From Streptomyces sp. ICC1 (GTDB taxonomy: Bacteria; Actinomycetota; Actinomycetes; Streptomycetales; Streptomycetaceae), in NCBI RefSeq assembly GCF_003287935.1, contig NZ_CP030287.1:1240001-1304000 (forward strand): a stretch of 64,000 bases of DNA, written 5' to 3'. Shown one piece after another: positions 8,542 through 64,000 of the stretch. The notes beneath the pieces were generated by a model. The model was not told the origin of the DNA. It saw only the letters and a program-made list of their open reading frames with translations, and did no database searches. Positions within the stretch are counted from its first letter, which is position 1. Every line of letters begins with the position of its first letter. The translations under genes and the position numbers were made by a program.

Positions 8542-8552
8542 CACGGAGGAGC

Positions 8553-8615
8553 GGTCCGCACGGCCTCCCACCAGGTCCGCACGGCCTCCCACCAGACCCG
8601 CAGAGCCTCCCACCG
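8553..8615. repeat. Three tandem 21-bp repeats
   Basis: Two identical copies (8553-8573 and 8574-8594, each reading GGTCCGCACGGCCTCCCACCA) and a third diverged copy (8595-8615). They start 11 nt after the DUF3000 stop codon. The 21-bp period would encode seven residues, but no convincing gene covers them. Role unknown. Confidence 0.85.
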
Positions 8616-8943: not shown

Positions 8944-9606
8944 GTGTCCGTTCTTCTCGAGCAGCCCGCAAGCCTGGTCGCCTACCGCCCGAACAAGCCG
9001 ACGGCCATGGTCGTCGTGGCCGACCCGCGCGTGCGCTCCACCGTGACCCGCCATTTGTGGGCACTCGGCGTACGTGACGTGATCGAGGCTTCGTCCATCG
9101 CGGAGGCCCGTCCACGCATCGGCAGCCCGCGCGACATCTGCGTGGCCGACGTACACCTGCCCGACGGTTCCGGTCTCACCCTGCTCTCCGAGGCCCGCGC
9201 CGCCGGTTGGCCGAACGGCCTGGCCCTGTCCGCCGCCGACGACATCGGCGCCGTGCGCAACGCCCTCGCGGGCGGAGTGAAGGGCTACGTCGTCACCGGC
9301 ACCCGGACCAACATCGGGCTCCCGTCCCGGCCCGGCGCCGCCCCCATCGGCGCCGCCGCGGCCCGTATGCACCGCCGCCCCCCGGGTGCCCCGAGCCACC
9401 CGGGCGGCTACCGCGAGCTCTCCGGCCGCGAGGTCGAGGTCCTGCGCCTCGTCGCGGAGGGCCAGTCCAACAAGGCCATCGGAGTCTCGATGGGCCTGTC
9501 CGCCCTGACCGTCAAGTCCCACCTCGCACGGATCGCCCGCAAGCTGGGCACCGGCGACCGGGCCGGGATGGTCGCCGTCGCCCTGCGCACCGGGATCATC
9601 CACTGA
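8944..9606 (+). CDS. NarL/LuxR-type response regulator with atypical receiver
   Basis: DNA-binding regulator of 220 aa. The N-terminal receiver domain has the expected phospho-acceptor Asp69 (ADVHLPDGSG) and a Lys in GVKGYVV, but the usual acidic pair near the N-terminus is reduced to a single Asp27 (VVVADPRVRS). A Pro/Ala-rich linker leads to a LuxR helix-turn-helix (LSGREVEVLRLVAEGQSNK ... LTVKSHLARIARKLG) at about 157-210. No sensor kinase gene is adjacent, so it is an orphan. The start is GTG at 8944 after the AGGAGG at 8933-8938. It is conserved beside rnd and hemE in Streptomyces. The target is unknown. Confidence 0.85.
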   Translation: MSVLLEQPASLVAYRPNKPTAMVVVADPRVRSTVTRHLWALGVRDVIEASSIAEARPRIGSPRDICVADVHLPDGSGLTLLSEARAAGWPNGLALSAADDIGAVRNALAGGVKGYVVTGTRTNIGLPSRPGAAPIGAAAARMHRRPPGAPSHPGGYRELSGREVEVLRLVAEGQSNKAIGVSMGLSALTVKSHLARIARKLGTGDRAGMVAVALRTGIIH

Positions 9607-9678
9607 CCCGGCCGATACCGCCCGCGAGACCCCGGGCCAACAACCGGAGAACCCGGGGAAACGTCCGTCCTTCCCCTT

Positions 9679-9714
9679 CGCGCCCGTCGCCGGAACGTTC
9701 CGGCGACGGGCGCG
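9679..9714 (+). terminator. Perfect 36-nt palindrome, terminator after the response regulator
   Basis: Two 18-nt arms meet without a spacer (CGCGCCCGTCGCCGGAAC followed by its complement). It sits 72 bp after the regulator stop and 25 bp before rnd. There is no T-run, as is usual in Streptomyces. Confidence 0.7.
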
Positions 9715-9739
9715 TCGCATGCACGGATACCCTTGACCA

Positions 9740-11050
9740 GTGACCGACGCCCAAGAAACCGCAGCAGGCCTGCGCACCACCACCGGGGGCGGCCCCCCGG
9801 ACGACGAGGTTTCGTCCGACGGGCTGCCCATCCCCTTGCTCGAGCCCCGCGAGGGCATCCCGCCGGTGGTCGCCGACGCCGAGGCGCTCGCCGAGGTGGT
9901 CGCGGCCTTCGCCGCGGGCACCGGACCCGTCGCCGTGGACGCCGAGCGCGCCTCCGGCTACCGCTACGGCCAGCGCGCCTACCTGGTGCAGCTGCGCCGC
10001 GAAGGCGCGGGCTCCGCGCTGATCGACCCGGTGGGCTGCCCCGACCTCTCCTCCCTGGGCGAGGCCCTCTCCGGTACCGAGTGGATCCTGCACGCGGCCA
10101 CCCAGGACCTTCCGTGCCTGCGCGAAATAGGCATGACGCCCACCTCCCTGTTCGACACCGAGCTCGCCGGACGCCTCGCCGGCTTCCCCCGGGTCGGGCT
10201 CGGCGCGATGGTCGAGGGCGTACTCGGCTACGTGCTGGAGAAGGGCCACTCCGCCGTCGACTGGTCCACCCGGCCGCTCCCCGAGCCGTGGCTGCGCTAT
10301 GCCGCGCTCGATGTCGAGCTGCTCGTGGACCTGCGCGACGCGCTGGAGAAGGAGCTGGACCGGCAGGGCAAGCTGGAGTGGGCCCGTCAGGAGTTCGACG
10401 CCATCGCCTCCGCGCCGCCCGCGCCGCCCCGCAAGGACCCTTGGCGCCGCACCTCCGGCATGCACAAGGTGCGCCGGCGCCGGCAGATGGCCGTCGTACG
10501 GGAGCTGTGGGAGTCCCGGGACCGGATCGCGCAGCGCCGCGACGTGTCACCGGGCAAGGTGCTGGGTGACGGCGCGATCGTCGAGGCCGCGCTCGCCCTG
10601 CCGCTGACCGTGCACGCGCTCTCGGCGCTGCCCGGATACGGGCAGCGCATGGGCCGGCGCCAGCTGGACCAGTGGATGGCCGCCGTGGAACGGGCGAAGG
10701 CCCTGCCCGAGAGCGAGCTGCCGCAGCCGGGGGCGACCCCGGCCGGCCCCCCGCCGCCGCGCTCCTGGGCGGACAAGGACCCGGAGGCCGCGGCACGCCT
10801 CGCGGCGGCCCGCACGGCCGTGTCGGCGCTGGCGGAGGGGCTGAACCTGCCCCAGGAGAACCTGATCACCCCCGACACGGTCCGCCGGCTGTGCTGGGAG
10901 CCGCCGGAGCGCCTGGAGCCCGACGCGGTGGCCGAGGCACTGGCGGGCTACGGGGCCCGCCCGTGGCAGATCGAACAGGTGACGGCGGCGCTGACGACGG
11001 CGCTGGCGACGACGCTGCCACCCGAGCCGGAGCCGGATCCGGCCGACTGA
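9740..11050 (+). CDS. rnd: Ribonuclease D (DEDD 3'-5' exonuclease with HRDC domains)
   Basis: Trims the 3' ends of structured RNAs, in particular tRNA precursors. The 436-aa product has an N-terminal DEDD exonuclease domain: Exo I DAE at Asp67/Glu69 (VAVDAERASG), Exo II around WILHAATQDLPCL, and Exo III in YAALDVELLVDLRD. An HRDC domain starts near KDPWRRTSGMHKVRRR and a second helical region follows. The start is GTG at 9740. TACCCT at 9728-9733 lies 6 nt before it and no Shine-Dalgarno is present, so the message may be leaderless. A strong terminator follows. Confidence 0.93.
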   Translation: MTDAQETAAGLRTTTGGGPPDDEVSSDGLPIPLLEPREGIPPVVADAEALAEVVAAFAAGTGPVAVDAERASGYRYGQRAYLVQLRREGAGSALIDPVGCPDLSSLGEALSGTEWILHAATQDLPCLREIGMTPTSLFDTELAGRLAGFPRVGLGAMVEGVLGYVLEKGHSAVDWSTRPLPEPWLRYAALDVELLVDLRDALEKELDRQGKLEWARQEFDAIASAPPAPPRKDPWRRTSGMHKVRRRRQMAVVRELWESRDRIAQRRDVSPGKVLGDGAIVEAALALPLTVHALSALPGYGQRMGRRQLDQWMAAVERAKALPESELPQPGATPAGPPPPRSWADKDPEAAARLAAARTAVSALAEGLNLPQENLITPDTVRRLCWEPPERLEPDAVAEALAGYGARPWQIEQVTAALTTALATTLPPEPEPDPAD

Positions 11051-11096
11051 GGCGTCGCGCCCGGGCCCCGGCCCCGGCCCGCCGCCCGTGATTCCA

Positions 11097-11135
11097 CGCA
11101 AGAGCCCCCCGTCCTGTGGACGGGGGGCTCTTGCG
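11097..11135 (+). terminator. Rho-independent-type terminator after rnd
   Basis: A perfect 18-bp stem (11097-11114 with 11118-11135) closing a TGT loop, 46 bp after the rnd stop. Strong and probably bidirectional. Confidence 0.85.
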
Positions 11136-11172
11136 CGTCCCGGTCTCGTCGAAGAGTCACGTCCGCGCATCT

Positions 11173-11215
11173 TTTGAACACGCTCAAAGTCTTGTAGTTT
11201 TTGAACGTGATCAAA
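11173..11215 (+). promoter_or_regulatory. Two copies of an inverted-repeat operator overlapping the start of the diiron-protein gene
   Basis: TTTGA-N6-TCAAA occurs at 11173-11188 and again at 11200-11215, with centres 27 bp apart. The second copy covers the GTG start codon at 11207. The spacing, near 2.5 helical turns, and AT-rich context suggest a repressor or activator binding as paired dimers. The cognate regulator cannot be named. Confidence 0.55.
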
Positions 11216-12064
11216 CATGGGTGGGGATACGAGGAGTGGGTGGCCGAGTTCGAGGCCGAGCGCGAGCGGCGGGCCGAGCGGGGCGATCCGGACTGGAGCC
11301 GGGTCACGACGCTCCCCGCGGAGCTCACCGGAAGCCTGCAGCGGTTCCAGCTGGGAGAAGGCGGGGACGGCGCCGAGCTGGCCGCCAAGGCCGAGCGGGC
11401 GGGCGATCCGGTGTACGCGCGGGCCGTACGGCTCTTCGTGGCGGAGGAGCAGAACCACGCGCGGATGCTGGCCCTGCTCCTGAAGGCCGAGGGCGGGGGG
11501 ACCCTGGCCGGCCACTGGAGCGACGCCGCCTTCGTCGGGCTGCGCAGGCTGCTCGGGCTGAAGGTGGAGCTGCTGGTACTGATGGTCGCGGAGGCGGTCG
11601 CCCTGCGGTACTACGAGGCGGTGCGCGACGGAGCCGCCGACCCGCTGACCTCGGAGGTGGCGGGCCGGATCCACGCCGACGAGGTGCGCCACGTCCCCTT
11701 CCACTGCCTGCGCCTGCGCGAGGCCCTGGCGCCCCTGCCCGCCCCCGCCCGGCGGGCGGCGGCCCTGGCCTGGCGGGCCCTGCTCGCCGGCGCGGCCGCC
11801 CTGGTCGCGGTGGACCACGGCCCGGCGCTGCGCACCCTGGGCGTCCGCCGCCGCGCCTTCGTGGCGGACACGGTCCGCTCCTCGTCCCCCATGGCCGCCG
11901 CCATGAGCTCGGCCCGGCCCGGCCCCCCGAGCCGCGGACCCGCCGACGGGTCCTGCTCGGGTAGCGCCGGGGCCGCGAGGAAGGGCGCGGCGGAGTGTGA
12001 CCTTCGCCGCTCCTTCCAGGGGGGCTGTGCATGCCGGTTACCGGCAAGTAGCATGGAGAGGTGA
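11207..12064 (+). CDS. Ferritin-like diiron-carboxylate protein (EX28DEXRH)
   Basis: Predicted soluble diiron protein of unknown reaction. The first half-site is E80-E81-x-x-H84 (AEEQNH). The second is Glu129 (MVAEAV) followed after exactly 28 residues by D158-E159-V-R-H162, which fits the EX28-37DEXRH iron-binding motif of rubrerythrin/oxidase-type four-helix bundles. Between them the helices are hydrophobic. The start is uncertain: TTG 11201 or GTG 11207, neither with a Shine-Dalgarno. Residues after about 225 are low in conserved character and run into the fadA promoter, so the natural C-terminus may once have been shorter. The gene follows the rnd terminator and has its own paired operator. 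Confidence 0.75.
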   Translation: MIKHGWGYEEWVAEFEAERERRAERGDPDWSRVTTLPAELTGSLQRFQLGEGGDGAELAAKAERAGDPVYARAVRLFVAEEQNHARMLALLLKAEGGGTLAGHWSDAAFVGLRRLLGLKVELLVLMVAEAVALRYYEAVRDGAADPLTSEVAGRIHADEVRHVPFHCLRLREALAPLPAPARRAAALAWRALLAGAAALVAVDHGPALRTLGVRRRAFVADTVRSSSPMAAAMSSARPGPPSRGPADGSCSGSAGAARKGAAECDLRRSFQGGCACRLPASSMER

Positions 12065-49592: not shown

Positions 49593-51122
49593 ATGGCAGA
49601 CGACTACCTCGTACGCATCGGCAAGCTCATCCGTGACGCCCGGCAGCACCGTGGCTGGACACAGAGTCAGCTCGCCGACGCACTCGGCACCAGCCAGAGT
49701 GCCGTGAACCGGATCGAGCGCGGCAACCAGAACATCAGCCTTGAGATGATCGCCCGCATCGGGGAAGCCCTCGACAGCGAAATCGTCTCCCTGGGCTACG
49801 CCGGTCCGATGCACCTGCGCGTGGTCGGCGGCCGCCGGCTGTCCGGCGCCATCGACGTCAAGACGAGCAAGAACGCGTGCGTCGCCCTGCTGTGCGCCTC
49901 ACTGCTCAACAAGGGCCGCACGGTGCTGAGGCGGGTCGCCCGGATCGAGGAGGTCTACCGCCTCCTGGAGGTCCTGAACTCCATCGGTGTCCGCACCCGC
50001 TGGATCAACGACGGCGTCGACCTGGAACTCGTACCGCCCGCCCGCCTCGACATGGACGCCATGGACGCGGACGCGGCCCGCCGGACCCGCAGCATCATCA
50101 TGTTCCTGGGTCCCCTCCTGCACCGGATGGACCACTTCAAGCTGCCGTACGCGGGCGGCTGCGACCTCGGCACCCGCACCATCGAGCCGCACATGATCGC
50201 CCTGCGCCGCTTCGGCCTGGACATCACCGCGACCGAGGGCATCTACCACGCCCAGGTCGAGGCCGGGGTCTCCCCGGACCGCCCGATCGTGCTGACCGAG
50301 CGCGGGGACACCGTCACCGAGAACGCGCTGCTGGCCGCCGCCCGGCACGACGGGACCACGGTCATCCGCAACGCCTCCTCCAACTACATGGTCCAGGACC
50401 TGTGCTTCTTCCTGGAGGCGCTCGGCGTCCGGGTCGACGGCGTCGGCACCACGACCCTGACGGTCCACGGCGTCCCGAACATCGACGTGGACGTGGACTA
50501 CTCCCCCTCCGAGGACCCGGTCGAGGCGATGAGCCTGCTGGCCGCGGCCGTGGTCACCGAGTCCGAGCTGACCATCCGCCGGGTGCCGATCGAGTTCATG
50601 GAGATCGAGCTCGCGGTCCTGGAGGAGATGGGCCTCGACCACGACCGCTCCCCCGAGTACACGGCGGACAACGGCCGCACCCGCCTGGTGGACCTCACCG
50701 TCCGCCCGTCGAAGCTCGAAGCGCCGATCGACAAGATCCACCCGATGCCCTTCCCCGGGCTGAACATCGACAACGTCCCGTTCTTCGCCGCCATCGCGGC
50801 CGTGGCCCAGGGTCAGACCCTGATCCACGACTGGGTGTACGACAACCGGGCCATCTACCTGACGGACCTCAACCGCCTCGGCGGTCGCCTCCAGCTCCTG
50901 GACCCGCACCGCGTCCTGGTCGAGGGCCCCACCCGCTGGCGCGCGGCGGAGATGATGTGCCCGCCGGCCCTGCGCCCGGCGGTGGTCGTCCTCCTGGCGA
51001 TGATGGCGGCCGAGGGCACCTCGGTCCTGCGCAACGTCTACGTCATCAACCGCGGCTACGAGGAACTGGCGGAACGCCTCAACTCGGTGGGCGCACAGAT
51101 CGAGATCTTCCGCGACATCTAA
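49593..51122 (+). CDS. XRE helix-turn-helix fused to UDP-GlcNAc enolpyruvyl transferase (MurA-like)
   Basis: The 509-aa protein joins two domains. Residues ~8-65 are a classical XRE helix-turn-helix (IRDARQHRGWTQSQLADALG then SQSAVNRIERGNQNIS). Residues ~75-509 are a MurA/EPSP-synthase fold: SGAIDVKTSKNACVALL (substrate Lys-Asn), AGGCDLGTRTIEP with Cys190 equivalent to the fosfomycin-target cysteine, and PFFAAIAAVAQG. Streptomyces has this as a second murA-like gene. Whether it is a working enzyme, a UDP-GlcNAc-sensing regulator or both is unknown. The ATG follows a TATCTGAGATA palindrome that it may bind itself. A strong terminator ends the unit. Confidence 0.85.
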   Translation: MADDYLVRIGKLIRDARQHRGWTQSQLADALGTSQSAVNRIERGNQNISLEMIARIGEALDSEIVSLGYAGPMHLRVVGGRRLSGAIDVKTSKNACVALLCASLLNKGRTVLRRVARIEEVYRLLEVLNSIGVRTRWINDGVDLELVPPARLDMDAMDADAARRTRSIIMFLGPLLHRMDHFKLPYAGGCDLGTRTIEPHMIALRRFGLDITATEGIYHAQVEAGVSPDRPIVLTERGDTVTENALLAAARHDGTTVIRNASSNYMVQDLCFFLEALGVRVDGVGTTTLTVHGVPNIDVDVDYSPSEDPVEAMSLLAAAVVTESELTIRRVPIEFMEIELAVLEEMGLDHDRSPEYTADNGRTRLVDLTVRPSKLEAPIDKIHPMPFPGLNIDNVPFFAAIAAVAQGQTLIHDWVYDNRAIYLTDLNRLGGRLQLLDPHRVLVEGPTRWRAAEMMCPPALRPAVVVLLAMMAAEGTSVLRNVYVINRGYEELAERLNSVGAQIEIFRDI

Positions 51123-54535: not shown

Positions 54536-54654
54536 CCCCCGTAAGGGGCACCGACCGCCTGGCCCTTCCGGCTCTTCCCGTGACCCCGTGCAACCGAGCA
54601 TGGGGCCGCGCACAGCCAACCACCCGGCACCAGCACCCCACGGAGAACCGATCC

Positions 54655-55302
54655 ATGCACGATGCGCACCGCGAACTTCCCACCACCCAGAAGGAGATGA
54701 TCACCGGCCTCAACAGCCCAGCAAGGTATGGCGTTGGACCGTCCAAGGGCCGGTCCAACGCAGCCTCCGCCCCGGGGGTGGCGGAGACAGAACCCCGGCG
54801 CGAGGGCGCACCGGGGCAGGAAGGGGCGGTCGTCGACGCCGGACTACCGGTTGTCGTACGTGCCGCTGACGCGGCCGCGCTGTACCGCGTCGCCCGCCGC
54901 CGTGCCCGTCAGGAAGTCCAGCGCACCCAGCGTGTCGACGTCCGCTACAGCGCCGACGAGAAGACGGAGATCCTCGCCGAGGCCCGTCGCCTCGGCCTCG
55001 CCGGCGCGCACCTCGTCGGCGCGATCGTCATGGCCTACCTCGACGGCCACTTCGAGATCCCCGGCCAGCGCACGTCCCACGACGACCTGATCGACGAACT
55101 CGTCGCCCTGCGCGCGGAGATCGCCCCGATCGGCAACAACGTCAACCAGATCGCCTTCAAGCTCAACTCCGGCGGCCGTCCCCACCCTGTGGACAGGGCC
55201 GTCCTGGCCCAGGCCGAACGTGTCCTCGCCCTCGCCCGGACTGCTGCCGAAGCGATCGAACTCGCCGCCGGCCGGACGTCCATCGCGAAGCGGGCGGCCT
55301 GA
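54655..55302 (+). CDS. mobC: Plasmid mobilisation relaxosome protein MobC
   Basis: Accessory protein that helps the relaxase open oriT. The 215-aa product has a low-complexity N-terminus, a ribbon-helix-helix-like part (QRVDVRYSADEKTEILAEAR ... GLAGAHLVGAIV) and the MobC signature LRAEIAPIGNNVNQIAFKLN at about 160-180. ATG 54655 is chosen on a GGAG element. The relaxase start follows the stop codon directly. An inverted repeat inside its first part (54731-54761) could be part of oriT. Confidence 0.85.
   Translation: MHDAHRELPTTQKEMITGLNSPARYGVGPSKGRSNAASAPGVAETEPRREGAPGQEGAVVDAGLPVVVRAADAAALYRVARRRARQEVQRTQRVDVRYSADEKTEILAEARRLGLAGAHLVGAIVMAYLDGHFEIPGQRTSHDDLIDELVALRAEIAPIGNNVNQIAFKLNSGGRPHPVDRAVLAQAERVLALARTAAEAIELAAGRTSIAKRAA
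54731..54761. other. Inverted repeat in mobC, possible oriT element
   Basis: GCGTTGGACC (54731-54740) and GGTCCAACGC (54752-54761) are perfect complements around 11 nt. It lies within the low-complexity N-terminal part of mobC. oriT inverted repeats commonly lie next to or within mobC. Inference only. Confidence 0.35.
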
Positions 55303-56970
55303 TTGATCGCGAAGATCGGCAAGGCCGGCGCCAACACCCGAGGCGTCCTGAACTACCTCTACGGCCCCGGCCGCGCCAACGAGCACACCGACCCCCACCT
55401 CGTGGCCTCGTGGGACGGCTTCGCCCCCGACCCCGGCCGCGACGAGACGGCTACCCTCGCCCGGCTCGCCAGCGTCCTCGACCTGCGGGTGAAGCAGGCA
55501 GGAGACCGCGCCCCGGAGAAGCACGTGTGGCACTGCTCGGTCCGGGCCGCGCCCGAAGACCGAACCCTGTTCGACGACGAGTGGGCAACGATCGCCCGCC
55601 GGGTCCTCAACGCCACCGGCATCGCGCCGGCAGGCGACCCTGACGCCTGCCGGTGGGTCGCGGTCCGCCACGCGGAGGACCACATCCACATCGTCGCCAC
55701 CAAGGTCCGAGGCGACCTCCGCGAGCCCCGGAACTGGAACGACTACGTCCGCGCCCACAAGGAACTGGCCGCGATCGAGAAGGAGTACGGCCTGCGCCAG
55801 GTCACACTCGGCGACCGCACCGCCGCCAAGAAGCCGACCCGCGCCGAACAGGAGAAAGCCCGCCGCACCGGTACGGCCACTACGCCCCGCGAGAGGCTGC
55901 GCACCACCGTCCGTACCGCGGTAGCGGCTGCCACCAGCACCGAGGAGTTCTTCACCATCCTCCACAGCACCAAGGTGCTGGTGGACATCCAGCACTTCCC
56001 CTCCGGCGACATCCGCGGCTACAAGGTCGCCCTCCCCGGTGACACCAACGCCCAGGGTGAGCCCGTGTGGTTCTCCGGTTCCACCCTCGGACCCGACCTG
56101 TCCTACCCGAAGATCAGCGAACGCCTCGCACCCACCAACCCCGCCCCCACAGAGCGACACGCTGGCCGGCGGCGTACGGCGTGGCAGCAGGTCACCGACA
56201 CGGCCGACCGCATCCCCGATCTGCTGACGGAGACCGATGACGCTGCGGGCCAGGCGCACATCACCGTGCTCGCCGAAACCCTCGACGTCCTCCCCCTGAT
56301 CGCCCCCGCCGCCTACAAGCCACAGCTCGCTCAGGCAGCGGCCGCATTCGAGCGGGCCAGCCGCTCCCGCATCCGCGCCCGCCACCAGCAGGCGCAGGCC
56401 ACACGCCGCGCCATCAAGGCGATCGTCCGGGAACCCGCGCCCAAGGACGGCGCCCTCCTCGCGATCCTCCTCGACGCCGTCCTTCTGGCCGTCGTCGCAG
56501 CACAGCACTGGCACCACACCCGCCACCACGACCAGCAGGCCGAAGCCGCCCGCCAGACAGCCGAACACCTGCACGCCGCCTACCAGGCAGCCACCATCCA
56601 GCCCCTGACCGCGATCCACCAACGCGGCCTGCGCCTGCCTCTACCCGTGCAACAGAGGCAGGCCGTCCTCGTCCGCCAGGCCCTGCCGGACCTGGCCGAG
56701 CAGATCCTCGCCGAACCCGGCTGGCCGGCCCTCGCCGCCACCCTCACCGACACCCGCAGCGCCGGCCACGACCCCGCCGCCCTGCTCACCCAGGCCGCCC
56801 GTCACCGGGAGCTCGACACCGCCGGCTCCGTCAGCGAAGTCCTCGTCTGGCGACTGCACCGCATCGCCGACCTGAACCAGCAACCCACCACAGGTGCCGC
56901 ACGCAGGTCAGCCCCGCCCCGGGTCACCAAACCTGCCACCTCCGCCGACCGCCCCCGCACGACCCGATGA
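55303..56970 (+). CDS. Relaxase/mobilisation nuclease
   Basis: Nicks oriT and pilots the strand during conjugative mobilisation. The 555-aa product has an N-terminal relaxase domain: KIGKAGANTRGVLNYLYG (motif I region with Tyr18 or Tyr20 as candidate nucleophile), WHCSVRAAPED, and the metal-binding HAEDHIHIVATKVRGD with His127 and His129. The C-terminal half is helical and includes one strongly hydrophobic stretch near DGALLAILLDAVLLAVVAA. The start is TTG 55303, directly abutting the mobC stop; no better codon exists. Its stop overlaps the next ATG. Confidence 0.88.
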   Translation: MIAKIGKAGANTRGVLNYLYGPGRANEHTDPHLVASWDGFAPDPGRDETATLARLASVLDLRVKQAGDRAPEKHVWHCSVRAAPEDRTLFDDEWATIARRVLNATGIAPAGDPDACRWVAVRHAEDHIHIVATKVRGDLREPRNWNDYVRAHKELAAIEKEYGLRQVTLGDRTAAKKPTRAEQEKARRTGTATTPRERLRTTVRTAVAAATSTEEFFTILHSTKVLVDIQHFPSGDIRGYKVALPGDTNAQGEPVWFSGSTLGPDLSYPKISERLAPTNPAPTERHAGRRRTAWQQVTDTADRIPDLLTETDDAAGQAHITVLAETLDVLPLIAPAAYKPQLAQAAAAFERASRSRIRARHQQAQATRRAIKAIVREPAPKDGALLAILLDAVLLAVVAAQHWHHTRHHDQQAEAARQTAEHLHAAYQAATIQPLTAIHQRGLRLPLPVQQRQAVLVRQALPDLAEQILAEPGWPALAATLTDTRSAGHDPAALLTQAARHRELDTAGSVSEVLVWRLHRIADLNQQPTTGAARRSAPPRVTKPATSADRPRTTR

Positions 56971-57992
56971 CACCAGCCACCCCACCGCATCCCTCAGCCC
57001 GCGCTCCCCCAGCAACGGCATACCTCAGCGCACACCCGCCGCACCCTCCCGGGCCTGCGGCAACACCAGCCAAAAGGAGCCACCCCCTGAAGATCCACCC
57101 CTACGCCGACACCTTCCCGATGCTCACCGAGGTCGAACTGCACGACCTCGCCGAGTCCATCAAGACCGAGGGCCAGCAGAAGCCGATCATCCTCGACCGA
57201 GACGGCGTCGTTCTCGATGGCCGCAACCGCCTCGCCGCCTGCAAGCGCGCCGGCATCGAACCCCGCTTCACCACATACGACGGCGACAACCCCACCCGCC
57301 TGATCTTCAGCAACAACATCGTCCGCCGGCACATCAGCAAGGGCCAGCAGGCCATGATCACCGCCATGGCGTGTTCCGTTTCGGGACACTCCCTGCGGAC
57401 CCAGGCCAAGCTCCACGACATCAGCCGCAGCCGCCTCTCCGCCGCCAACGTCGTACTCCAGCACGCCCCCGACCTAGCCGAACGAGTACGCCTCGGCACA
57501 CTCGGCCTCGACGCCGCCCACGACCAGGCCCGCGAACGCAAGACCCACACCGAGGCGCTCCTCGCCCAGAACGAACGCCTGCAACAGCACGCCCCCGACC
57601 TCGCCGAGAAGGCCGCCGAGGGCCACCTCACCCTTGACGCCGCCATCGCCGCCCTCGACAGGCGACTCGAAGAGGAACGGCTCCGCCAGCTCGTGAGGGA
57701 CTCCGACGCACTCCTCCTCGCCGACCGCGACGCCACACCCGCCTTCAGCCCGCTCGCCGACCGCGGCGACATCACCTGGGGGCAGGCAGCCCAGCTCGCC
57801 GAGGAACACCTCACCCGTCGGCACGAGGCCATCCTCCGCACACAGCAGGCCCTGCAACTGATCGCCGACAACTGGGCCGCCGTCCGTGACCTCGCAGCCC
57901 GACACGACACCCCCTATGCCCAGGAGATCCTCGACGGCCTCACCCCTGAAGCACACGCACTCACCACACACCTGACCACCACGGCCACCTGA
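56967..57992 (+). CDS. ParB-like nuclease-domain protein
   Basis: Predicted DNA-binding protein for partition or regulation of the element. The ParB/Srx domain is clear (ELHDLAESIKTEGQQKPIIL, VVLDGRNRLAACKRAGIEP), followed by KGQQAMITAMA and a helix-turn-helix-like QAKLHDISRSRLSAANVVL, then a long helical C-terminus. ATG 56967 overlaps the relaxase stop (ATGA), but the first 40 residues are Pro/Ala-rich and unlike the family. AAAAGGAG at 57070-57077 stands 9 nt before an in-frame CTG at 57087, which would start the protein just ahead of the ParB fold. Confidence 0.8.
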   Translation: MTPATPPHPSARAPPATAYLSAHPPHPPGPAATPAKRSHPLKIHPYADTFPMLTEVELHDLAESIKTEGQQKPIILDRDGVVLDGRNRLAACKRAGIEPRFTTYDGDNPTRLIFSNNIVRRHISKGQQAMITAMACSVSGHSLRTQAKLHDISRSRLSAANVVLQHAPDLAERVRLGTLGLDAAHDQARERKTHTEALLAQNERLQQHAPDLAEKAAEGHLTLDAAIAALDRRLEEERLRQLVRDSDALLLADRDATPAFSPLADRGDITWGQAAQLAEEHLTRRHEAILRTQQALQLIADNWAAVRDLAARHDTPYAQEILDGLTPEAHALTTHLTTTAT

Positions 57993-57998
57993 CACAAC

Positions 57999-58044
57999 CA
58001 ACGCCTGTGGGCCAACGCAGAACGCGTTGGCCCCACAGGCGTTG
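57999..58044 (+). terminator. Strong terminator closing the mobilisation module
   Basis: A 20-nt arm (57999-58018) pairs with 58024-58044 with a single bulged C and a 5-nt loop. It lies between two converging genes and can serve both. Confidence 0.9.
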
Positions 58045-58056
58045 TTCCCGACCTGG

Positions 58057-58416
58057 TCACGTCCGGCTGCGTCGGTGGCGACCCCGCCCGCGGACACCAA
58101 ACCTGTCTTCCCGACCGCACTCGGGCCGATGCACGGGGTACCCAGGGTTGTCGTGAAGCTGGAGGGACTCCCAGACGCGTACTTGGATTTCTCCGATGCA
58201 GGGGCCGCAGGCGTACATGGGTGCCTGGGCTCCGGCGACACTGACCGGGCCGATCCACAGAACGCGGGTCTGTCGCTGCCCGCAGTACAGCCAGCAGGTG
58301 CCGTCGACCCAGTGGTTGCCGTCGTTGGTCGCCGCCGGATCGGGGAGGCCACCGCGCGCGAACTCGGCGATGCCGGGGATCACCGGGTGGCGCGGCAGGC
58401 CCAGCTCGGGCCGCAC
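58057..58416 (-). CDS. Small cysteine-rich (zinc-ribbon-like) protein
   Basis: Hypothetical protein of about 119 aa. The middle holds C-W-L-Y-C and, about 23 residues on, C-G-P-C (MYACGPCIGE), a likely zinc ribbon of a type common among Streptomyces hypotheticals. The C-terminus is Arg-rich. The start is uncertain. GTG 58416 is proposed because it lies 4 nt after the GNAT stop with AGGA at 58430-58427; the frame is open further up inside the GNAT gene. Likely cotranscribed with the GNAT and HTH genes. Confidence 0.55.
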   Translation of the reverse strand: MRPELGLPRHPVIPGIAEFARGGLPDPAATNDGNHWVDGTCWLYCGQRQTRVLWIGPVSVAGAQAPMYACGPCIGEIQVRVWESLQLHDNPGYPVHRPECGREDRFGVRGRGRHRRSRT

Positions 58417-58420
58417 CAGG

Positions 58421-59068
58421 TCACGGTTCCTGTCCACTGTCACCGTCAGGTGAGGTCGCCGGCGCCGCAACATCGCCGGCAGCACCCGACTCAAGGGTGT
58501 CGATCGGTGTCCACTCGTGCTCCAGGATCGAGTACGTGATCGAGTCTCGCCAGGCTCCGTGAACGAAGACGTGATCGCGGATCCGCCCGTCCTCGGTCAT
58601 ACCTGCTCGTAGGAGGGTGCGCGCGGATGCCTCGTTGAGTGGCGAACGCGCAGCCCAAATCCGGTGCAGGCCCAGGGCCTTGAAGCCGAGCGTGCACAGC
58701 AGGTGGACGGTCTCCGTGCCGAGGCCCTTGCCCCACTCCGCGGGGTTCAAGGCGAAGCCGATGGTGGCTGCCTGCTGAGGCTCGGTCGCCAGGCGCGCGT
58801 AGCCGATCAGCCGGTGTTCACCGAGCGGGGTGATGGCGAGGCAGTACTCGGTTCGCGGGGTGTCCTTCGCGGAGGCGATGGACCGGTCGATGATCCCCTG
58901 GGCCTGGTCGCGAGTGCGGGGCTCGAAGCTGAGGTGCCGGGTGGCCTCGGGGTCCCCGTAGATGGCCAGGAGGTCAGCGTTGTCTTCGGGTTCGACTTCG
59001 CGCAGCGCCAGGCGGGGGCTGGCCAGGTGGACTGACGTCATGCCTTCGGAGCCTACCGGCGGGGTCAC
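58421..59068 (-). CDS. GNAT family N-acetyltransferase (RimJ/RimL type)
   Basis: Acetylates an unknown amine, protein N-terminus or small molecule. The ~215-aa product has SPRLALREVEPEDNADLLAIY at the N-terminus, acetyl-CoA binding around FALNPAEWGKGLGTETVHLL, and HRIWAARSPLNEASARTLLRAGM. GTG 59068 overlaps the stop of the upstream regulator gene (GTGA); ATG 59041 is the alternative. The operon context suggests the regulator controls it. Confidence 0.85.
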   Translation of the reverse strand: MTPPVGSEGMTSVHLASPRLALREVEPEDNADLLAIYGDPEATRHLSFEPRTRDQAQGIIDRSIASAKDTPRTEYCLAITPLGEHRLIGYARLATEPQQAATIGFALNPAEWGKGLGTETVHLLCTLGFKALGLHRIWAARSPLNEASARTLLRAGMTEDGRIRDHVFVHGAWRDSITYSILEHEWTPIDTLESGAAGDVAAPATSPDGDSGQEP

Positions 59069-60504
59069 CGGACGAGGACCGATGTCGGGGTGGCCGTGAA
59101 GGCTTCGATCTCCTCGCGCAGGCTTGCTGCCGCGCCTCGGTTTCGCCGGCCCTCGGCCTGCAGTGCGATGTGGACCCGCTGGGCGCTGCTGGTGATGCCG
59201 AAGTTCCGCTGCTCGATGGGGAGGTCGAGCACGGGCTGCACCGCCTCGATGGCGCCCTCGATCTCGCCTCGGGCGATGCGGGCGAGGGCGAGGTCTGTCT
59301 GCGCGCCGGCCTCGTCACCGAAGGCCCACTCGTCCTCAGTGGCGCTGCGGTACGCGGCGACGGCGGCCTCCGACTGGCTCTCGCCGAGTGCGGGGTCCTC
59401 GCCGAGGTGCACGGTGGCCTCGGCGACGTAATACAGCTGGCGGGGCACCGGGAAGGTCATGATGCCGCCGAAGGCATCGAGGTCGTCGGGTTCGAGAGTC
59501 GTGCGGGCCTCCTCAGCCTGCTGAATGGCGGTGCGGGTGGCCTCGCCGTCGCCGAGGAGCGCGTGGGCGCGGGCGGAGAGACAGGCCAGCCAGACACTGG
59601 TGGTGCCGCGGACGCTCCCGGCGGTGTTCTGGCCGAGGGTGGCGTAGTCAGCGGCCTCGGAGGGGCGCCCGGCCCAGTAGGAGATGAGGGACTGCAGGGA
59701 GCGGACCCATGCACGCATGGCGTGGTGGTCGGCGTTGTCCGCGCACACGAAGGCGGTGCGGGCCTGCATCATCGCCGCGCTCGGGTTGCCCAGGTCGTGG
59801 CTGGCTTTGGCGAGCATGCCCGAGGTGATCCCGGCGAGCAGGTAGAGCTCGCGGGCCTGCAGTGGCTTGACCCTGCCATGTTCCAGCAGCCGGAAGGTGA
59901 GGTCCTGTACCTCGACCAGATCACCGAGCAAGGTCGGCAGCGCCAGCTTCGGATACGCGACGGTCAGCCGTCGCACCTCGTCCTGGATCTGGCCCAGGGT
60001 CTCCGGTCCGACACTGCTGCCCTCCGCCATCGCGGTGAACCGGAGCGCACGACGAGCCGCCATCGCAACCTGCCTTTCCAATTCTGTGGTGCCCGCCTCG
60101 AAGCGGGTCTCGCTGCTGAACGGACCACCGGCAAGCAGCACCTGTGCCTGCTCGGATGGGAGGAGGACAGAGCTCAGCCGTGGCGGTGGGATGACGAGTG
60201 AGGACTCGACCGGGGTCGTCGGTGAGGCGGCAGGCGCGGGTGCCGGTGCGAGGAGGAGATCGACGCCGACGCCGAACATGGCCTCCAGTACCCGGCACTG
60301 ATCCGGGTACGGGCGGGTCTTCACCGCGCCGCCGTACCAGCGCTCGAACTGCCGCTTGGAGACGGACAGACCCCCAAGCGACGGGTCGTTCTCGTCCAGC
60401 GCCAAGCGGTGGGCCGCTTCCTCGAACCGGAGCAGAAAGGTCTTGTAGACCTGCCAGTGCCTCCGCAGCGTCAAGACCCTTAAAAGCGTGGGAGTTTCAG
60501 CCAC
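59065..60504 (-). CDS. Helix-turn-helix regulator with TPR-like sensor region
   Basis: Predicted pathway-specific regulator of 479 aa. Residues ~8-75 look like a divergent helix-turn-helix (HRLALDENDPSLGGLSVSKRQFERW ... CRVLEAMFG). The remaining ~330 residues are repeated helix pairs of the tetratricopeptide kind (ASHDLGNPSAAMMQARTAFV, LACLSARAHALLGDGEATR, AQTDLALARIARGEIEGA), as in many Streptomyces plasmid and cluster regulators. GTG 60504 is supported by GGAGGGG 8 nt upstream. It is divergent from the oxygenase/nucleotide operon, which it probably controls. Confidence 0.75.
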   Translation of the reverse strand: MAETPTLLRVLTLRRHWQVYKTFLLRFEEAAHRLALDENDPSLGGLSVSKRQFERWYGGAVKTRPYPDQCRVLEAMFGVGVDLLLAPAPAPAASPTTPVESSLVIPPPRLSSVLLPSEQAQVLLAGGPFSSETRFEAGTTELERQVAMAARRALRFTAMAEGSSVGPETLGQIQDEVRRLTVAYPKLALPTLLGDLVEVQDLTFRLLEHGRVKPLQARELYLLAGITSGMLAKASHDLGNPSAAMMQARTAFVCADNADHHAMRAWVRSLQSLISYWAGRPSEAADYATLGQNTAGSVRGTTSVWLACLSARAHALLGDGEATRTAIQQAEEARTTLEPDDLDAFGGIMTFPVPRQLYYVAEATVHLGEDPALGESQSEAAVAAYRSATEDEWAFGDEAGAQTDLALARIARGEIEGAIEAVQPVLDLPIEQRNFGITSSAQRVHIALQAEGRRNRGAAASLREEIEAFTATPTSVLVR

Positions 60505-60858
60505 CGCAGATCCCCTCCGGTCCCTGTTCGTCTGGTCTGACGATAGCCCCGGCCGATCGGCGGGAAACCCTTTCCGCCGGCCCACGGAGCAGATGACGGC
60601 AGCCATGACGGTGGTGATGACGCACCACGACGTGGACCGGCCTGCAGGGCGGGGATGAGGACGGCCTCGCGACGGCAGCGGCGTCGTATCCATGCGTTCC
60701 GGCCCGTCGCCATGCTGAGCGGCACCTCGCTTTCCGTGTATTGCCGACAGCGAAGCGTGAGACCGGGAGCGCGGCTACAGCGCCACCCGAACAACCCCCC
60801 ATCCAGCACCACGTGCCCGCCGGCCCCCGACTCGGGAGCCGGCAACGGGAGGGAACTG
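60505..60858. promoter_or_regulatory. Divergent control region between the regulator and the oxygenase operon
   Basis: 354 bp without a gene. GGCGGGAAA-CCC-TTTCCGCC (60559-60578, one bulge) is the clearest dyad and lies 55 bp upstream of the regulator start. The side near the operon is slightly AT-richer around GTGTATTGCC (60737) but no convincing -35/-10 pair was fixed. A GGGAGG Shine-Dalgarno precedes 60859. Confidence 0.4.
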
Positions 60859-61692
60859 ATGGACAACACCGTGACCGCTCTGGCCGGGCAGATCGCCCAG
60901 CTGGACTCGATCGAGCTCGCTCAGCTGGAGCGGATGCGCCACGAGGCCCTGACCGTCCAGGCCCCCTGGAAGGCGGAGTACGGCGCCTACCAGTCGGGCG
61001 GCTGGTGGACGACCTCGCTGATGAACGCCTCCGGCAAGGCCGCCGACGTGACGATCGGCGACTGCGCCGCCAAACCGACCGAGCTGCTGGCCCAGATGCC
61101 GGCTACCTCCGCACTCCTGGACGAACTGGGCCTGAACTACATGTGGGTGCGGCTCGCGCGGCTGGAGCCCAACGCGTTCCTGTGGGAGCACCGCGACTAC
61201 GACGACCTCGACCAGATCGAGCGCCACCGGCTGCACATCCCGCTGCACACCAACACGTCGGCGTTCCTCGTCACCGGCGGCACCAAGGTGCACATGACCG
61301 GAGGACGGATCTGGCGGCTGACACCGACGTACGCCCACGGAGTGTGCAACCTCCTCGGCCCCGACCGCATCCACCTGATCGCCGACGTGTACGCCGACGA
61401 CACCTACCGGCGGCTCGCCCGACACCCCTCGCTCCACCCCGGCACCACCGAACCGCTGCCCTCCGCGAACCACTCGGTCCTCGCCGAGCGTCTGCAGGCC
61501 GCCCGGAACATGGCCGAGCTCGGCTACACGGAAGCCGCCGAGCGGATGCTGCTGAGGCTCTTCTACGCCTACGCCCTGCCCGAGGGCACGGCCTACGACC
61601 TGATCGCCGAGCTGCACACCTCGCTCGGCGACATGGAGGCCGCGACGCGATGGACGGCGGCCAAGCAGCGCCTCCTCGTCCTCACGGCCTGA
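60859..61692 (+). CDS. Aspartyl/asparaginyl beta-hydroxylase-like Fe(II)/2-oxoglutarate oxygenase
   Basis: Predicted hydroxylase of a small molecule or amino-acid side chain. The 277-aa product has the AspH double-stranded beta-helix: H111-x-D113 (WEHRDYDD) as the iron dyad, RHRLHIPLHTN, GGTKVHMTGGRIW, and the distal H160-G-V-C-N ... R170-x-H-L-x-x-D typical of this family, with Arg170 expected to bind 2-oxoglutarate. A C-terminal helical domain follows (MAELGYTEAAERMLLRLF). The ATG at 60859 has a GGGAGG. First gene of a plus-strand operon. The substrate is unknown. Confidence 0.82.
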   Translation: MDNTVTALAGQIAQLDSIELAQLERMRHEALTVQAPWKAEYGAYQSGGWWTTSLMNASGKAADVTIGDCAAKPTELLAQMPATSALLDELGLNYMWVRLARLEPNAFLWEHRDYDDLDQIERHRLHIPLHTNTSAFLVTGGTKVHMTGGRIWRLTPTYAHGVCNLLGPDRIHLIADVYADDTYRRLARHPSLHPGTTEPLPSANHSVLAERLQAARNMAELGYTEAAERMLLRLFYAYALPEGTAYDLIAELHTSLGDMEAATRWTAAKQRLLVLTA

Positions 61693-61741
61693 TCAGCTGC
61701 CCCGCAAGTCCACCCCGCCGGAATCCGAACGGAGGACGCGC

Positions 61742-62614
61742 ATGCCCACCCTGCAACTGGCCGAACTCACCCACGCCAACCGACCGGCCCAGCTCCCGCT
61801 CCTGGCGAGCCTCGCCGACATCCTGGCGACCTCGCGGGCCGTCACCCACCTGATGATCCGGGGCTCGCTGGCCCACGGCACCGCCGACCGCCTCTCGGAC
61901 GTCGACTTCGTCGTCGGCGTCCACGACGCCCAGCTGCCCGCGTTCGTGAAGGCCCTGGACGATCTGATGTCCATCGAGGCCGGCGCCCTGCTGCCCGGCT
62001 GGCGCGACACGATCGTCGCCGACCTCGGCGGCATCGGGATGGTCTTCCTCATCCCGGACGACGGCAGGCTGCACCAGATCGACCTCTACCTCGTGCCCGC
62101 CACACGCATCCCGCACCTGCGCGCAACGGTCGCCACCGCCTCGATCCTCGACCGAGAGCCGACACCCGCTGGACCCGAGGCGGTCCGGGCAGCCGGGAGC
62201 TTCGCCGCGGAGTTCCTCGCCCGGCCGCGTACGTGCACCGAGCTGCTGATCGAACACCTGGTGCTGGCCGTACTGCTGCACAAGCGCATCAAGCGGGGCC
62301 AGCGGTTCGTCGCCTACTCGGAGTGGCACCGGCTGCACACCGCGACGAAGGACCTCATCAAGGCCGCTCTGGCCCCGGCATCCCGGTTCTGGGGCTGGTA
62401 CCAGCTGCGCGAGGAAATCGCCGTCACCCCGATCGGCCGGGCCTGCCTGAGCGACCTGGACGCGGCGATCAGCGGGCCCGCCGTGCCGACGGCCACCGAC
62501 GTCGTGGCGGCCATCGACCGGATGCTCGCCCTCGTCGAGCGGGCCTGCCCCGAAGCCCTCGACGGCCTGGGCGATGCCATCGCCGCCTACCGCACCTACC
62601 AGGAGCTGGTGTGA
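61742..62614 (+). CDS. Nucleotidyltransferase of the DNA polymerase beta superfamily
   Basis: Predicted to transfer a nucleotide to a small molecule or protein. The 290-aa product has G41-S42-LAHGTADRLS-D53-V-D55, the GS(x)nDxD metal motif of aminoglycoside-type nucleotidyltransferases, and a later QIDLYLVP that can supply the third carboxylate. The C-terminal half is helical. The ATG at 61742 is 49 bp after the oxygenase gene. Its stop overlaps the start of the LOG gene (GTGTGA). Antibiotic resistance is possible, but the operon points to a biosynthetic role. Confidence 0.82.
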   Translation: MPTLQLAELTHANRPAQLPLLASLADILATSRAVTHLMIRGSLAHGTADRLSDVDFVVGVHDAQLPAFVKALDDLMSIEAGALLPGWRDTIVADLGGIGMVFLIPDDGRLHQIDLYLVPATRIPHLRATVATASILDREPTPAGPEAVRAAGSFAAEFLARPRTCTELLIEHLVLAVLLHKRIKRGQRFVAYSEWHRLHTATKDLIKAALAPASRFWGWYQLREEIAVTPIGRACLSDLDAAISGPAVPTATDVVAAIDRMLALVERACPEALDGLGDAIAAYRTYQELV

Positions 62615-63210
62615 ACGCACTCCACCTCGCCGGCCCGGCCACCAGCTGGGCCCGCGAGGGCCTGACCGCCGTCTTCTTCGGCGGCGTCGTCCCTGCCTCG
62701 GCTGAGGAGGAGAAGCTGGCCGAGGAGATCGGCCGCGCCCTGGCCCGGGCCGGGTACTCGCTCCTGCACGGCGGCTACAACGGGTTGATGGAGGCCGCAG
62801 CCCGCGGAGCGAGCTCCGAGGGAGCCATGGTCACGGCGGTCACCCTGATCGGCAAGCACGACGAGTGGGGACCGTTCAACCCGCATGCCACGAGCTCGGT
62901 CCACCTGCCCGACCTCGGCGCACGGCTCAACCACTACCTGGCACACGCGGATCTGATCGTCGCGATGGGCGGCGGCGTCGGCACTCTGCACGAACTGACC
63001 GCCGCCCTGTACTACGCGACCACCATCCGGCCCGTACCGATCTTCCTGACCGGGTCGGCCGCCCTGCGCCTACTCGCCTTCCTGCGGCAGGAGAAGTGGC
63101 TGTACGAGACCCCGACCCGGCCACTCGGCTACCTCACCGCCGTCGAGTCCGCCGACGCCTTCCACACCTGCCTCGCCACGCTCGACACAGCCCCGATCGG
63201 AGGAGCATGA
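62611..63210 (+). CDS. LOG-family nucleotide 5'-monophosphate phosphoribohydrolase
   Basis: LOG enzymes release a free base from a nucleoside 5'-monophosphate, as in cytokinin activation. The 199-aa product has the Rossmann-like fold with GYSLLHGGYNGLMEAAARGA and the family motif variant GGGVGTLHELTAAL, where the usual first Pro is Gly and the catalytic Glu is kept. GTG 62611 overlaps the preceding stop. With the adjacent phosphoribosyltransferase it suggests base release and re-attachment. Annotation as lysine decarboxylase would be wrong. Confidence 0.82.
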   Translation: MNALHLAGPATSWAREGLTAVFFGGVVPASAEEEKLAEEIGRALARAGYSLLHGGYNGLMEAAARGASSEGAMVTAVTLIGKHDEWGPFNPHATSSVHLPDLGARLNHYLAHADLIVAMGGGVGTLHELTAALYYATTIRPVPIFLTGSAALRLLAFLRQEKWLYETPTRPLGYLTAVESADAFHTCLATLDTAPIGGA

Positions 63211-63758
63211 CCACCAGCCCCTCGCTGGCCGGCCTCACTGCCCGGCTCGCCGAAACCGCCTGCGTCACCGCCCCGTTCAGCCTCGCCGACGGTGCCCGGC
63301 TGGACGCCTACTTCGACGAGTACCGTCTAGCCGCCGACCCCACGCTCCTGCACGACACCGCCGCCGCCCTGGCCTGCCTCGTGCCCGGCGACGCCCGGCT
63401 GCTCGCGGGCATCGAGCTCGGCGGCGTCCCCCTCGTCGTCGCCCTGTCCGCTGCCACCGGCCTGCCCGCTGTGTTCCTGCGCCGCCGACCCAAGGGCTAC
63501 GGCTCCCACCGGCAGATCGAGGGCGCCCCACTCGACGGCCGCCGTACCGTCCTGGTCGACGACGTGGTCCGCTCCGGTGGACAGCTGTTGAAGATGGCCC
63601 GCACCTTGCGGATCGCCGGAGCTCCCGTCAGCCACGCGTTGTGCGTACTGGAGCGCCCGCTCGGAGGCCGCCTGCTCTTGGCAGAGCACCGCGTCACCCT
63701 GCATTCCCTGCTCACCGAGGCCGACCTGCCGCCCACGCAGGGCGGTGAAGCAGCGTGA
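63207..63758 (+). CDS. Orotate phosphoribosyltransferase-like enzyme
   Basis: Type I phosphoribosyltransferase that should join a base to PRPP. The 183-aa product has GIELGGVPLVVALSAATG, the flexible-loop region LRRRPKGYGSHRQIEG, and the PRPP loop VLVDDVVRSGGQLLKMA. The sequence resembles OPRT but lies far from pyrimidine genes, so the base may not be orotate. The ATG overlaps the LOG stop (ATGA). Confidence 0.85.
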   Translation: MTTSPSLAGLTARLAETACVTAPFSLADGARLDAYFDEYRLAADPTLLHDTAAALACLVPGDARLLAGIELGGVPLVVALSAATGLPAVFLRRRPKGYGSHRQIEGAPLDGRRTVLVDDVVRSGGQLLKMARTLRIAGAPVSHALCVLERPLGGRLLLAEHRVTLHSLLTEADLPPTQGGEAA

Positions 63759-64000
63759 AGCGGGCCGTACTCTTCGACCTCGACGGGGTCCTCCTCGACA
63801 GCCGCACCGCGCAACTCGCCACGCTGGCAGGCTTCGCGACCTCGGCTCTCGACCACCGCGTCACCACCGACGGCCTCCCCGCCGGAGCCCTGACCAGGCC
63901 ACGCGAGCAGGTATTGGCCGAACTCGGCCTGAACGGGGTGATCAACGAGGACGGCTGGGACGCGGCCACCGCAACGGCCGGTCTCCACACCGAGACCTTC
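63755..64000 (+). CDS. HAD-superfamily phosphatase, N-terminal part (cut by window end)
   Basis: Starts with AVLFDLDGVLLDSRTAQ, the nucleophile motif DxDG(V) of beta-phosphoglucomutase/phosphatase-type HAD enzymes, followed by the helical cap. Only 82 codons are inside the window. GTG 63755 overlaps the previous stop. In this operon it is likely to remove a phosphate from a nucleotide-type intermediate. Confidence 0.8.
   Translation, partial: MKRAVLFDLDGVLLDSRTAQLATLAGFATSALDHRVTTDGLPAGALTRPREQVLAELGLNGVINEDGWDAATATAGLHTETF

Follow-up and report, generated by a model that had tools for sequence, protein, structure and literature searches.

What is made by a short, tightly packed set of enzyme genes in a Streptomyces genome, and why should a second alanyl-tRNA synthetase (AlaRS) stand at its end? 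We examined this question for Streptomyces sp. ICC1, in a window of 64,000 nucleotides (bases 1,240,001-1,304,000 of the 9.03-Mb single-contig genome) and in an extension stretch covering the DNA past its end (L008). An earlier note on the window had described one operon of an AspH oxygenase, a nucleotidyltransferase (NT), a LOG protein, an orotate phosphoribosyltransferase (OPRT)-like enzyme and a HAD phosphatase. That observation is confirmed, as all named genes are present and are joined by one 49-bp gap and three 4-bp stop/start overlaps. The extension completed the HAD gene, and the operon did not end there: a leader and a full-length AlaRS gene, which begins 225 bp past HAD, belong to the same unit, and both had been missed because the window ends inside HAD. 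Our reading, to which we give a probability of about 0.5, is that this mobile operon makes a nucleotide- or nucleoside-type compound that depletes alanyl-tRNA, and that its sixth gene serves as inducible self-protection.

The five core genes are a conserved unit. A protein search yielded 274 NT homologues at E <= 0.001, and those with an organism name among the 120 matches listed were actinobacterial, mostly from Streptomyces and Kitasatospora. We assembled 54 NT loci (35 from genome contigs, 15 of 19 regions from relatives, three plasmid regions and the window) and removed seven with an identical NT, which left 47 distinct loci. All five core genes occur in the same order in 42 of these and four of the five in a further two, while one locus (L038) has the hydroxylase and NT only and two (L042, L145) are decayed. 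Because the same order recurs in 42 of 47 loci, the arrangement is not due to chance, and the co-occurrence in other actinobacteria on which the earlier note had staked its operon was borne out. The five-enzyme set is common to scattered soil actinobacteria, being carried by 12 of 200 family genomes, 10 of 392 genus genomes and 3 of 394 class genomes (own genome counted), and we rejected ordinary nucleotide salvage as the principal explanation because the set is too rare for it. Twelve PLSDB plasmid records match the NT, eight of them at >=80% NT coverage and all from Streptomyces, and a relaxase match lies <=9 kb away in 14 of the 47 distinct loci. We read this as a rare accessory operon that moves horizontally, some of its copies being plasmid-borne or close to a relaxase. 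The L038 locus of Acrocarpospora (9117-11949) holds hydroxylase, NT, leader and kinase, with no LOG, phosphoribosyltransferase (PRT) or HAD gene nearby, hinting that hydroxylase and NT form the heart of the pathway.

The sixth place is filled by one of two unrelated genes. Among 44 loci with at least four core genes, an AlaRS adjoins 35, an APH-type kinase eight (PF01636, 44.7 bits in L035) and neither one (L033), and the two never occur together. We searched 27 genome handles with an AlaRS model, three of which (G098, G160, G051) are second reads of others (G204, G212, G215). All 18 handles with an operon AlaRS (17 distinct genomes) gave at least two AlaRS matches, the operon copy being in pieces in G205 and G207. 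Among the eight handles of the kinase or neither type, seven gave exactly one match and one (G214) no candidate; they represent six distinct genomes, five of them with exactly one match. A genome with a decayed operon (G220) gave three. The third AlaRS copies of G207, G208 and G220 had no core genes within the stretches examined (L131, L130, L128). In ICC1 itself, the other full-length alaS is the housekeeping gene (G000:C1:845631-848222). Two weak AlaRS-model matches (81 and 51 bits; G000:C1:3256161-3256793) lie within a single 761-aa frame of the same genome, perhaps a truncated AlaRS-like enzyme.

In a tree of 81 AlaRS sequences, the operon copies fall into two clades. The Streptomycetaceae operon copies (AlaRS-A, 23 rows including three second reads) group, at 59% identity, with the housekeeping AlaRS from a distantly related lineage within the phylum, and the Nocardia and Kibdelosporangium copies (AlaRS-B, five rows) adjoin a long-branched housekeeping row of another family, not the AlaRS of their own hosts. 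A tree with a single operon clade was rejected (lnL -261, p-AU 6e-51, on a thinned 47-row set and a quick tree). As there are two clades and a single origin is rejected, the phylogeny indicates that an AlaRS joined, or was replaced in, the operon at least twice, neither time as a copy of the host gene. AlaRS-A is full length and keeps the class II catalytic domain and the editing motifs HxxxH (HSATH) and CxxxH (CGGTH). Its motif 3 reads DTGLGLDR, with Asp in place of Glu, in all 23 rows (second reads account for three) and in three copies found apart from the core genes; housekeeping AlaRS have Glu in 52 of 53 rows, the motif being missing in one. Among the clade differences printed, this substitution is the one at a catalytic motif. 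Convergent changes in the two clades were considered and dropped, as the printed positions differ in one clade or the other and none in both.

AlaRS-A and the NT tend to occur in the same genomes. Two runs over the same handles of 392 genus genomes, with AlaRS-A detected by a C-terminal probe at E <= 1e-45, found the NT in 10 genomes, AlaRS-A in nine and both in seven (Fisher p 1.6e-11, kinship ignored). The three genus genomes with NT and no AlaRS-A are two kinase loci and one decayed locus. Three genomes (G722, G905 and G220, in the last away from the decayed operon) carry AlaRS-A and leader without core genes, and the genus search found no NT in G722 or G905. These three places have no other called gene in common, though in G722 the contig ends 625 bases away. 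Judged by eye, the neighbourhood of a lone AlaRS-A in S. zagrosensis (L129 9288-17098) includes an HTH regulator and proteins of radical SAM-like and CYTH-like type.

What the two types of sixth gene share is the leader before them. In the gap between HAD and alaS, a hairpin is followed by some 100 bases that hardly vary. Among the 47 loci, this leader precedes AlaRS-A in 30 of 30 Streptomycetaceae AlaRS loci, and it also precedes the three lone copies; a homologous leader occupies the same place in all eight kinase-type loci, in L038 and in L033, which retains it although the kinase is gone. We listed 38 leaders (28 after merging identical ones, plus 10) and aligned 29, near-copies being left out. 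Each contains an open reading frame of 14-19 codons (MVYTVGARAICVELEN in the window genome, MRVMRRRAPGAELEH in L035, MTSFPASVMWRAIGAALEI in L039, MTCDRRATSAGRERAAAA in L038), the end of which is the 5' arm of a long hairpin. An Ala codon lies exactly 4 nt 5' of the stem in 29 of 29 aligned leaders, and in 28 of the 29 the last base of the stop codon lies 20 nt into the stem. When 12 codon columns were compared over 30 leaders (L175 added), the Ala column was the sole one with a single amino acid, encoded by GCT in 23, GCG in 5 and GCA in 2. The hairpin cells are paired at 98.1%, versus 25-50% after sliding by 1-3 columns. The frame with its candidate regulatory codon and the hairpin overlapping it are attenuator features, and the leader reads as a putative attenuator sensing the loss of alanyl-tRNA.

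A covariance model of the leader found one strong copy in its own genome (123 bits; the next match scored 23.5). In 246 genus genomes, searched with stricter filters that lose weak matches, it gave four matches above 50 bits, before AlaRS-A (G000, G722) or before a kinase (G592, G724); the PRT-HAD-leader-kinase remnant in G724 was discovered through the RNA alone. A match in G757 was weak (28 bits), and we dropped as chance the weak matches in G739 and G637, which lie inside called genes, and one in L131 (26.8 bits), which overlaps the start of a GntR-like gene. Searched with the same model, 53 housekeeping alaS loci gave a best score of 17.3 bits. That best match (L115 1374-1446) stands in front of alaS in the lineage closest to AlaRS-A and includes CGAGCT together with a stem; possibly, the AlaRS-A gene brought its leader along. 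Rfam gave no match in window positions 57500-64000 at gathering level, nor in L008 7900-12500 up to E 1. Directly after HAD (L008 8440-8495), we noted by eye a TANNNT-like -10 element and a 5' hairpin whose stem letters vary on both sides among relatives; the sixth gene might thus be driven from a separate promoter.

The families of the core enzymes support the nucleotide-type chemistry that had been suggested for this operon. The hydroxylase has an HxD...H iron site, the 2-oxoglutarate Arg and a full-length fold, and by sequence and fold it is nearest, over nearly its whole length, to free L-proline hydroxylases; the predicted 2-oxoglutarate hydroxylase family held, while closeness to AspH did not, as the peptide-modifying AspH enzymes are more distant. 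Likewise, the nucleotidyltransferase family stood, and the activating or capping enzyme that had been proposed became a small-molecule enzyme whose nearest relatives are LinB/ANT, with intact GS..DxD..D catalytic residues and a pol-beta fold followed by a C-terminal helical domain. The LOG protein keeps R105, G121, G122, G124, T125 and E128 in 18 of 18 rows, that is, the GGxGT..E motif and the catalytic Arg with their established roles in LOG enzymes. It matches 1weh (E 1.1e-14) and the LOG structure 5zi9 (E 1.1e-11), and falls below the TIGR00730 cut-off (59.8 versus 96.35 bits), outside that curated subfamily. The PRT matches the OPRT 2wns (E 1e-26) and retains, in 16 of 16 rows, the motif for phosphoribosyl pyrophosphate (PRPP; D118, D119, R122, G124) and the flexible-loop residues R92 and K96. 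Its pyrE score (85.6 bits) is under the cut-off of 106.8, and the Lys position of the LKSG segment, which has a functional role in orotate phosphoribosyltransferases, is occupied by A, S or P in all 16 rows; because of these two features, we classify it on sequence grounds as PyrE-like and not PyrE proper. The HAD protein has D8, D10, T103, K134, D159 and D163 in 15 of 15 rows.

We propose the following mechanism. The LOG protein would release a base from a 5'-monophosphate, the OPRT-like enzyme would couple a (different) base to PRPP, and HAD would remove the phosphate. The proline-hydroxylase-like enzyme would hydroxylate a free amino acid or a derivative of it, and the ANT/LinB-like enzyme could then add a nucleotidyl group to the hydroxyl, yielding a mimic of an aminoacyl-adenylate. 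Such a compound would lower the level of charged tRNA-Ala, most simply through inhibition of AlaRS. The sixth gene would then protect the producer, through a presumably insensitive foreign AlaRS in most loci or through an APH-type kinase that inactivates the product. When alanyl-tRNA runs short, the ribosome would stall on the invariant Ala codon, which lies 4 nt ahead of the stem; this would keep the hairpin from forming and let the protection gene be transcribed. We infer that the product depletes alanyl-tRNA and that the sixth gene protects against it because a duplicate of the putative target was acquired twice, because AlaRS and kinase alternate, and because both stand behind a shared leader with a positioned Ala codon. 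For the same reason, we do not favour a 'protective compound', which the earlier note had offered among its options: a second AlaRS and the leader before it rather suggest an agent against which the producer must defend itself. Overall, the interpretation given in that note is partly supported. If our reading is true, a short, clonable gene set would be predicted to yield an agent against alanyl-tRNA charging, with an insensitive target built in for validation and a leader that is a ready reporter for product discovery. One self-protection switch would serve two unrelated protection genes, through an Ala-reading attenuator that is testable codon by codon. More tentatively, these loci could represent a new, minimal class of mobile natural-product operons in which the protection gene, AlaRS or kinase, is a swappable cartridge behind one conserved leader whose single positioned Ala codon would gauge alanyl-tRNA.

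Several observations weigh against this reading. One locus (L033) has an intact core with neither AlaRS nor kinase, only the leader, and at least three others (L021, L022, L025) have a fragmented AlaRS copy, so some carriers manage without an intact operon AlaRS. The Nocardia-type AlaRS is convergent in four of five loci, and no leader match above 11.5 bits was found in the AlaRS-B loci. The leader itself has no established alternative antiterminator, and its hairpin lacks a U-run in the window genome. The folding of the bare leader does not stand out in several copies (z -0.45 to -3.74, n=7), with z -0.55 in the window genome, where the whole intergenic region reaches -5.4. Two of the 16 codons in the window genome's leader frame encode Ala, about the average of Streptomyces coding sequence, so that the case for the leader rests on Ala position and synonymous change, not on enrichment. 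Two-sided changes in the hairpin are few (four pairs, five cells; 0.4 in shuffles), and since slid controls reach 0-5 such pairs, the case for the hairpin is carried by pairing and covariation adds little. The conserved gene set lacks an exporter and any enzyme that would obviously modify sugar or base, and with an unmodified base and PRPP, LOG plus PRT would run a futile cycle. The compound, its activity and the enzyme steps are predicted from genes.

Some of these points fit other explanations. The main rival, which we consider unlikely, is a resistance or detoxification cassette, in which the enzymes would modify an AlaRS-directed or nucleoside antibiotic of other producers and AlaRS-A or the kinase would be the main protection. 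The NT resembles the ANT/LinB resistance enzymes, resistance classically relies on functions such as APH, GNAT and a spare target, the operon is mobile and plasmid-borne without an exporter, and AlaRS-A occurs without the core in three genomes. Five linked enzymes, including a PRT that joins bases and a LOG that frees them, nevertheless exceed the needs of inactivation, and the LOG-PRT-HAD triad is a proven biosynthetic one in angustmycin. An intracellular nucleotide signal, or a stress or defence system of the nucleotide-centric conflict type, would also account for the carriage by mobile elements, the lack of an exporter and the NsdA-like regulator, and LOG/SLOG and nucleotidyltransferase families do serve in such conflict systems. 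This we regard as very unlikely, as it leaves the spare AlaRS and the Ala-positioned leader unexplained, and PADLOC models run against 10 proteins gave no weighty match (best 19 bits, NT to PDC-S09), on which ground we also tentatively set aside a known anti-phage defence system.

Two further alternatives concern alanine itself. A second AlaRS might provide the alanyl-tRNA with which the product is alanylated in a tRNA-dependent step, in the way that AcmD serves AcmF in ascamycin; the full-length AlaRS-A with its retained editing motifs and the GNAT near some loci would suit this role. We nonetheless find it quite unlikely, given that the conserved core holds no AcmF-like truncated AlaRS or FemX-like transferase, that the scorable kinase-type genomes have one AlaRS, and that the same Ala leader stands before the kinase. 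Alternatively, kinase and AlaRS could be biosynthetic or incidental neighbours, and the leader could sense alanine supply simply since the pathway uses alanine. Leader attenuators usually follow the amino acid used downstream and the kinase is only a putative protection enzyme, but we judge this highly improbable: an Ala-reading leader before a kinase is hard to explain by alanine use alone, AlaRS was recruited twice from unrelated lineages, and the best explanation for a leader common to synthetase and kinase is that both answer the same need for protection.

The surroundings of the operon vary more than its core (Table 1). The divergent regulator that the earlier note had recognised stood the comparison: an NsdA-type regulator lies near 21 of 47 distinct loci, and several loci without one (L010, L035, L148, L149) hold a different regulator there, either HTH/TPR-type or annotated as such, so a divergent regulator may be the general rule for this operon. 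Its start in the window is an inferred GTG at 60504; an alternative gene call starts at 60474. The GNAT and the zinc-ribbon gene, which had been suggested as a tailoring arm, do not form a constant one, as GNAT was flagged upstream in 15 of 47 distinct loci, with a copy only 31% identical in L042. Pfam and NCBIfam searches gave zero matches for the Cys-rich protein, homologues of which (55-73% identical) lie beside L009, L011-L014, L018 and L034. In L020 (6810-7166) and further members of its subgroup, an ASCH-domain gene takes the place behind the regulator that GNAT occupies in the window, and a second GNAT (L008 11389-12024, minus strand), convergent to alaS, recurs in many Streptomycetaceae loci. 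The mobilisation module noted in front of the operon was upheld by the relaxase, with MobC just under its cut-off. Elsewhere in the window (49593-51122, plus strand), a 509-aa protein joins an N-terminal Cro/C1-type HTH to a MurA/EPSP-synthase-like enzyme.

Table 1. Features of the operon and its flanks (window positions unless marked L008)
Feature	Position	Strand	Evidence
Core 1, Fe(II)/2-oxoglutarate hydroxylase, L-proline-hydroxylase-like	60859-61692	+	PF05118 58.9 bits
Core 2, small-molecule nucleotidyltransferase (NT), ANT/LinB-like	61742-62614	+	Polbeta, NTP_transf_2 below cut-offs
Core 3, LOG-family nucleotide 5'-monophosphate phosphoribohydrolase-like protein	62611-63210	+	PF18306 60.5 bits; PF03641
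Core 4, phosphoribosyltransferase (PRT), orotate-PRT-like	63207-63758	+	Pribosyltran 32.3 bits
Core 5, HAD phosphatase-like	63755-64426, past window end (L008 7756-8427)	+	HAD_2 79.3 bits, full gene
Leader, 3' of HAD beyond the window	L008 8499-8612; open reading frame MVYTVGARAICVELEN* 8518-8568; hairpin about 8549-8605		
Second full-length AlaRS	L008 8653-11307		TIGR00344 842 bits, cut-off 457
Small Cys-rich (zinc-ribbon-like) protein	58057-58437, start uncertain (frame 58057-58494)	-	CxxxC/CxxC by eye
GNAT acetyltransferase, Acetyltransf_3 type	58421-59068	-	PF13302 91.5 bits
NsdA-family TPR regulator, divergent	59065 to about 60504, start uncertain	-	NCBIfam NsdA_fam_reg NF053720 93.6 bits, cut-off 75
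Relaxase	55303-56970		Relaxase 32.5 bits, cut-off 24.6
MobC	54580-55302		MobC 22.6 bits, just under cut-off 23.2

The closest precedent for the chemistry is angustmycin, for which AgmA (a LOG phosphoribohydrolase), AgmE (a PRT) and AgmB (a HAD phosphatase) are reported to free the base of adenosine monophosphate, rejoin it and dephosphorylate the product in a reconstituted pathway (PMC8599513), lending a precedent to the LOG-to-PRT-to-HAD logic of the earlier note. LOG, PRT and HAD occur together in both systems. The PRT of the present operon, however, is OPRT-like and not adenine phosphoribosyltransferase-like (E 9.7e-12 to 7f06, an adenine phosphopsicosyltransferase, versus 1e-26 to OPRT), and the operon adds a hydroxylase, a nucleotidyltransferase and AlaRS or kinase. 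Counterparts of the pyrophosphokinase AgmC, the epimerase AgmD and the dehydratase AgmF were absent from the conserved set across 36 loci, as judged from gene-cluster sizes, scanned representatives and plasmid annotation. The hydroxylase has its nearest known relatives, over almost its entire length, in the L-proline cis-3/cis-4-hydroxylases, but identity is only about 20% and its substrate may differ.

Duplicated synthetases in producers offer a second set of parallels. In ascamycin biosynthesis, the duplicate AlaRS AcmD is described as providing Ala-tRNA supply and self-resistance (PMC12945691; PMC4257720). The acm cluster thus resembles the present operon in having a full-length second AlaRS among nucleoside genes, and differs in its sulfamate genes, its truncated AlaRS AcmF and its major facilitator superfamily (MFS) transporter, none of which is in the present core. 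The best relative reported for AcmD is from Bacteriovorax (44%; PMC4257720), and AlaRS-A has 59% identity to an actinobacterial lineage; judged by such relatives, the two would differ. An auxiliary TrpRS is reported to protect the indolmycin producer (PMC6804068), and the LeuRS AgnB2 to give protection against TM84 (PMC7916415). As proposed here, a second aminoacyl-tRNA synthetase shields the producer of a synthetase inhibitor in those cases; in our operon, by contrast, the putative target is AlaRS, and the leader can be followed by a kinase instead of the protective synthetase.

Attenuation controls the auxiliary TrpRS gene of S. coelicolor. Attenuators have also been described before trpS2 and leuS in Streptomyces (PMC1262725), and in S. 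lividans a leader peptide, alaL (MNVIGRNIFATARATSSPVAAA*, 6 Ala in 22 residues), precedes alaS (PMC8079986). The likeness lies in an Ala-codon leader peptide before an AlaRS gene. In the available text of that report no biosynthetic operon is described (PMC8079986), and the leaders studied here differ in usually having one to three Ala codons, one of them at a fixed distance, and in also serving a kinase. By eye, the L038 leader peptide (10886-10978; MTCDRRATSAGRERAAAA) resembles the end of the S. lividans AlaL, ...ATARATSSPVAAA. The earlier note knew no named pathway with this combination, and our literature search likewise found no paper on this operon or on the five-family combination: the parts have precedents, while their combination, and one leader for two different protection genes, did not appear in that search.

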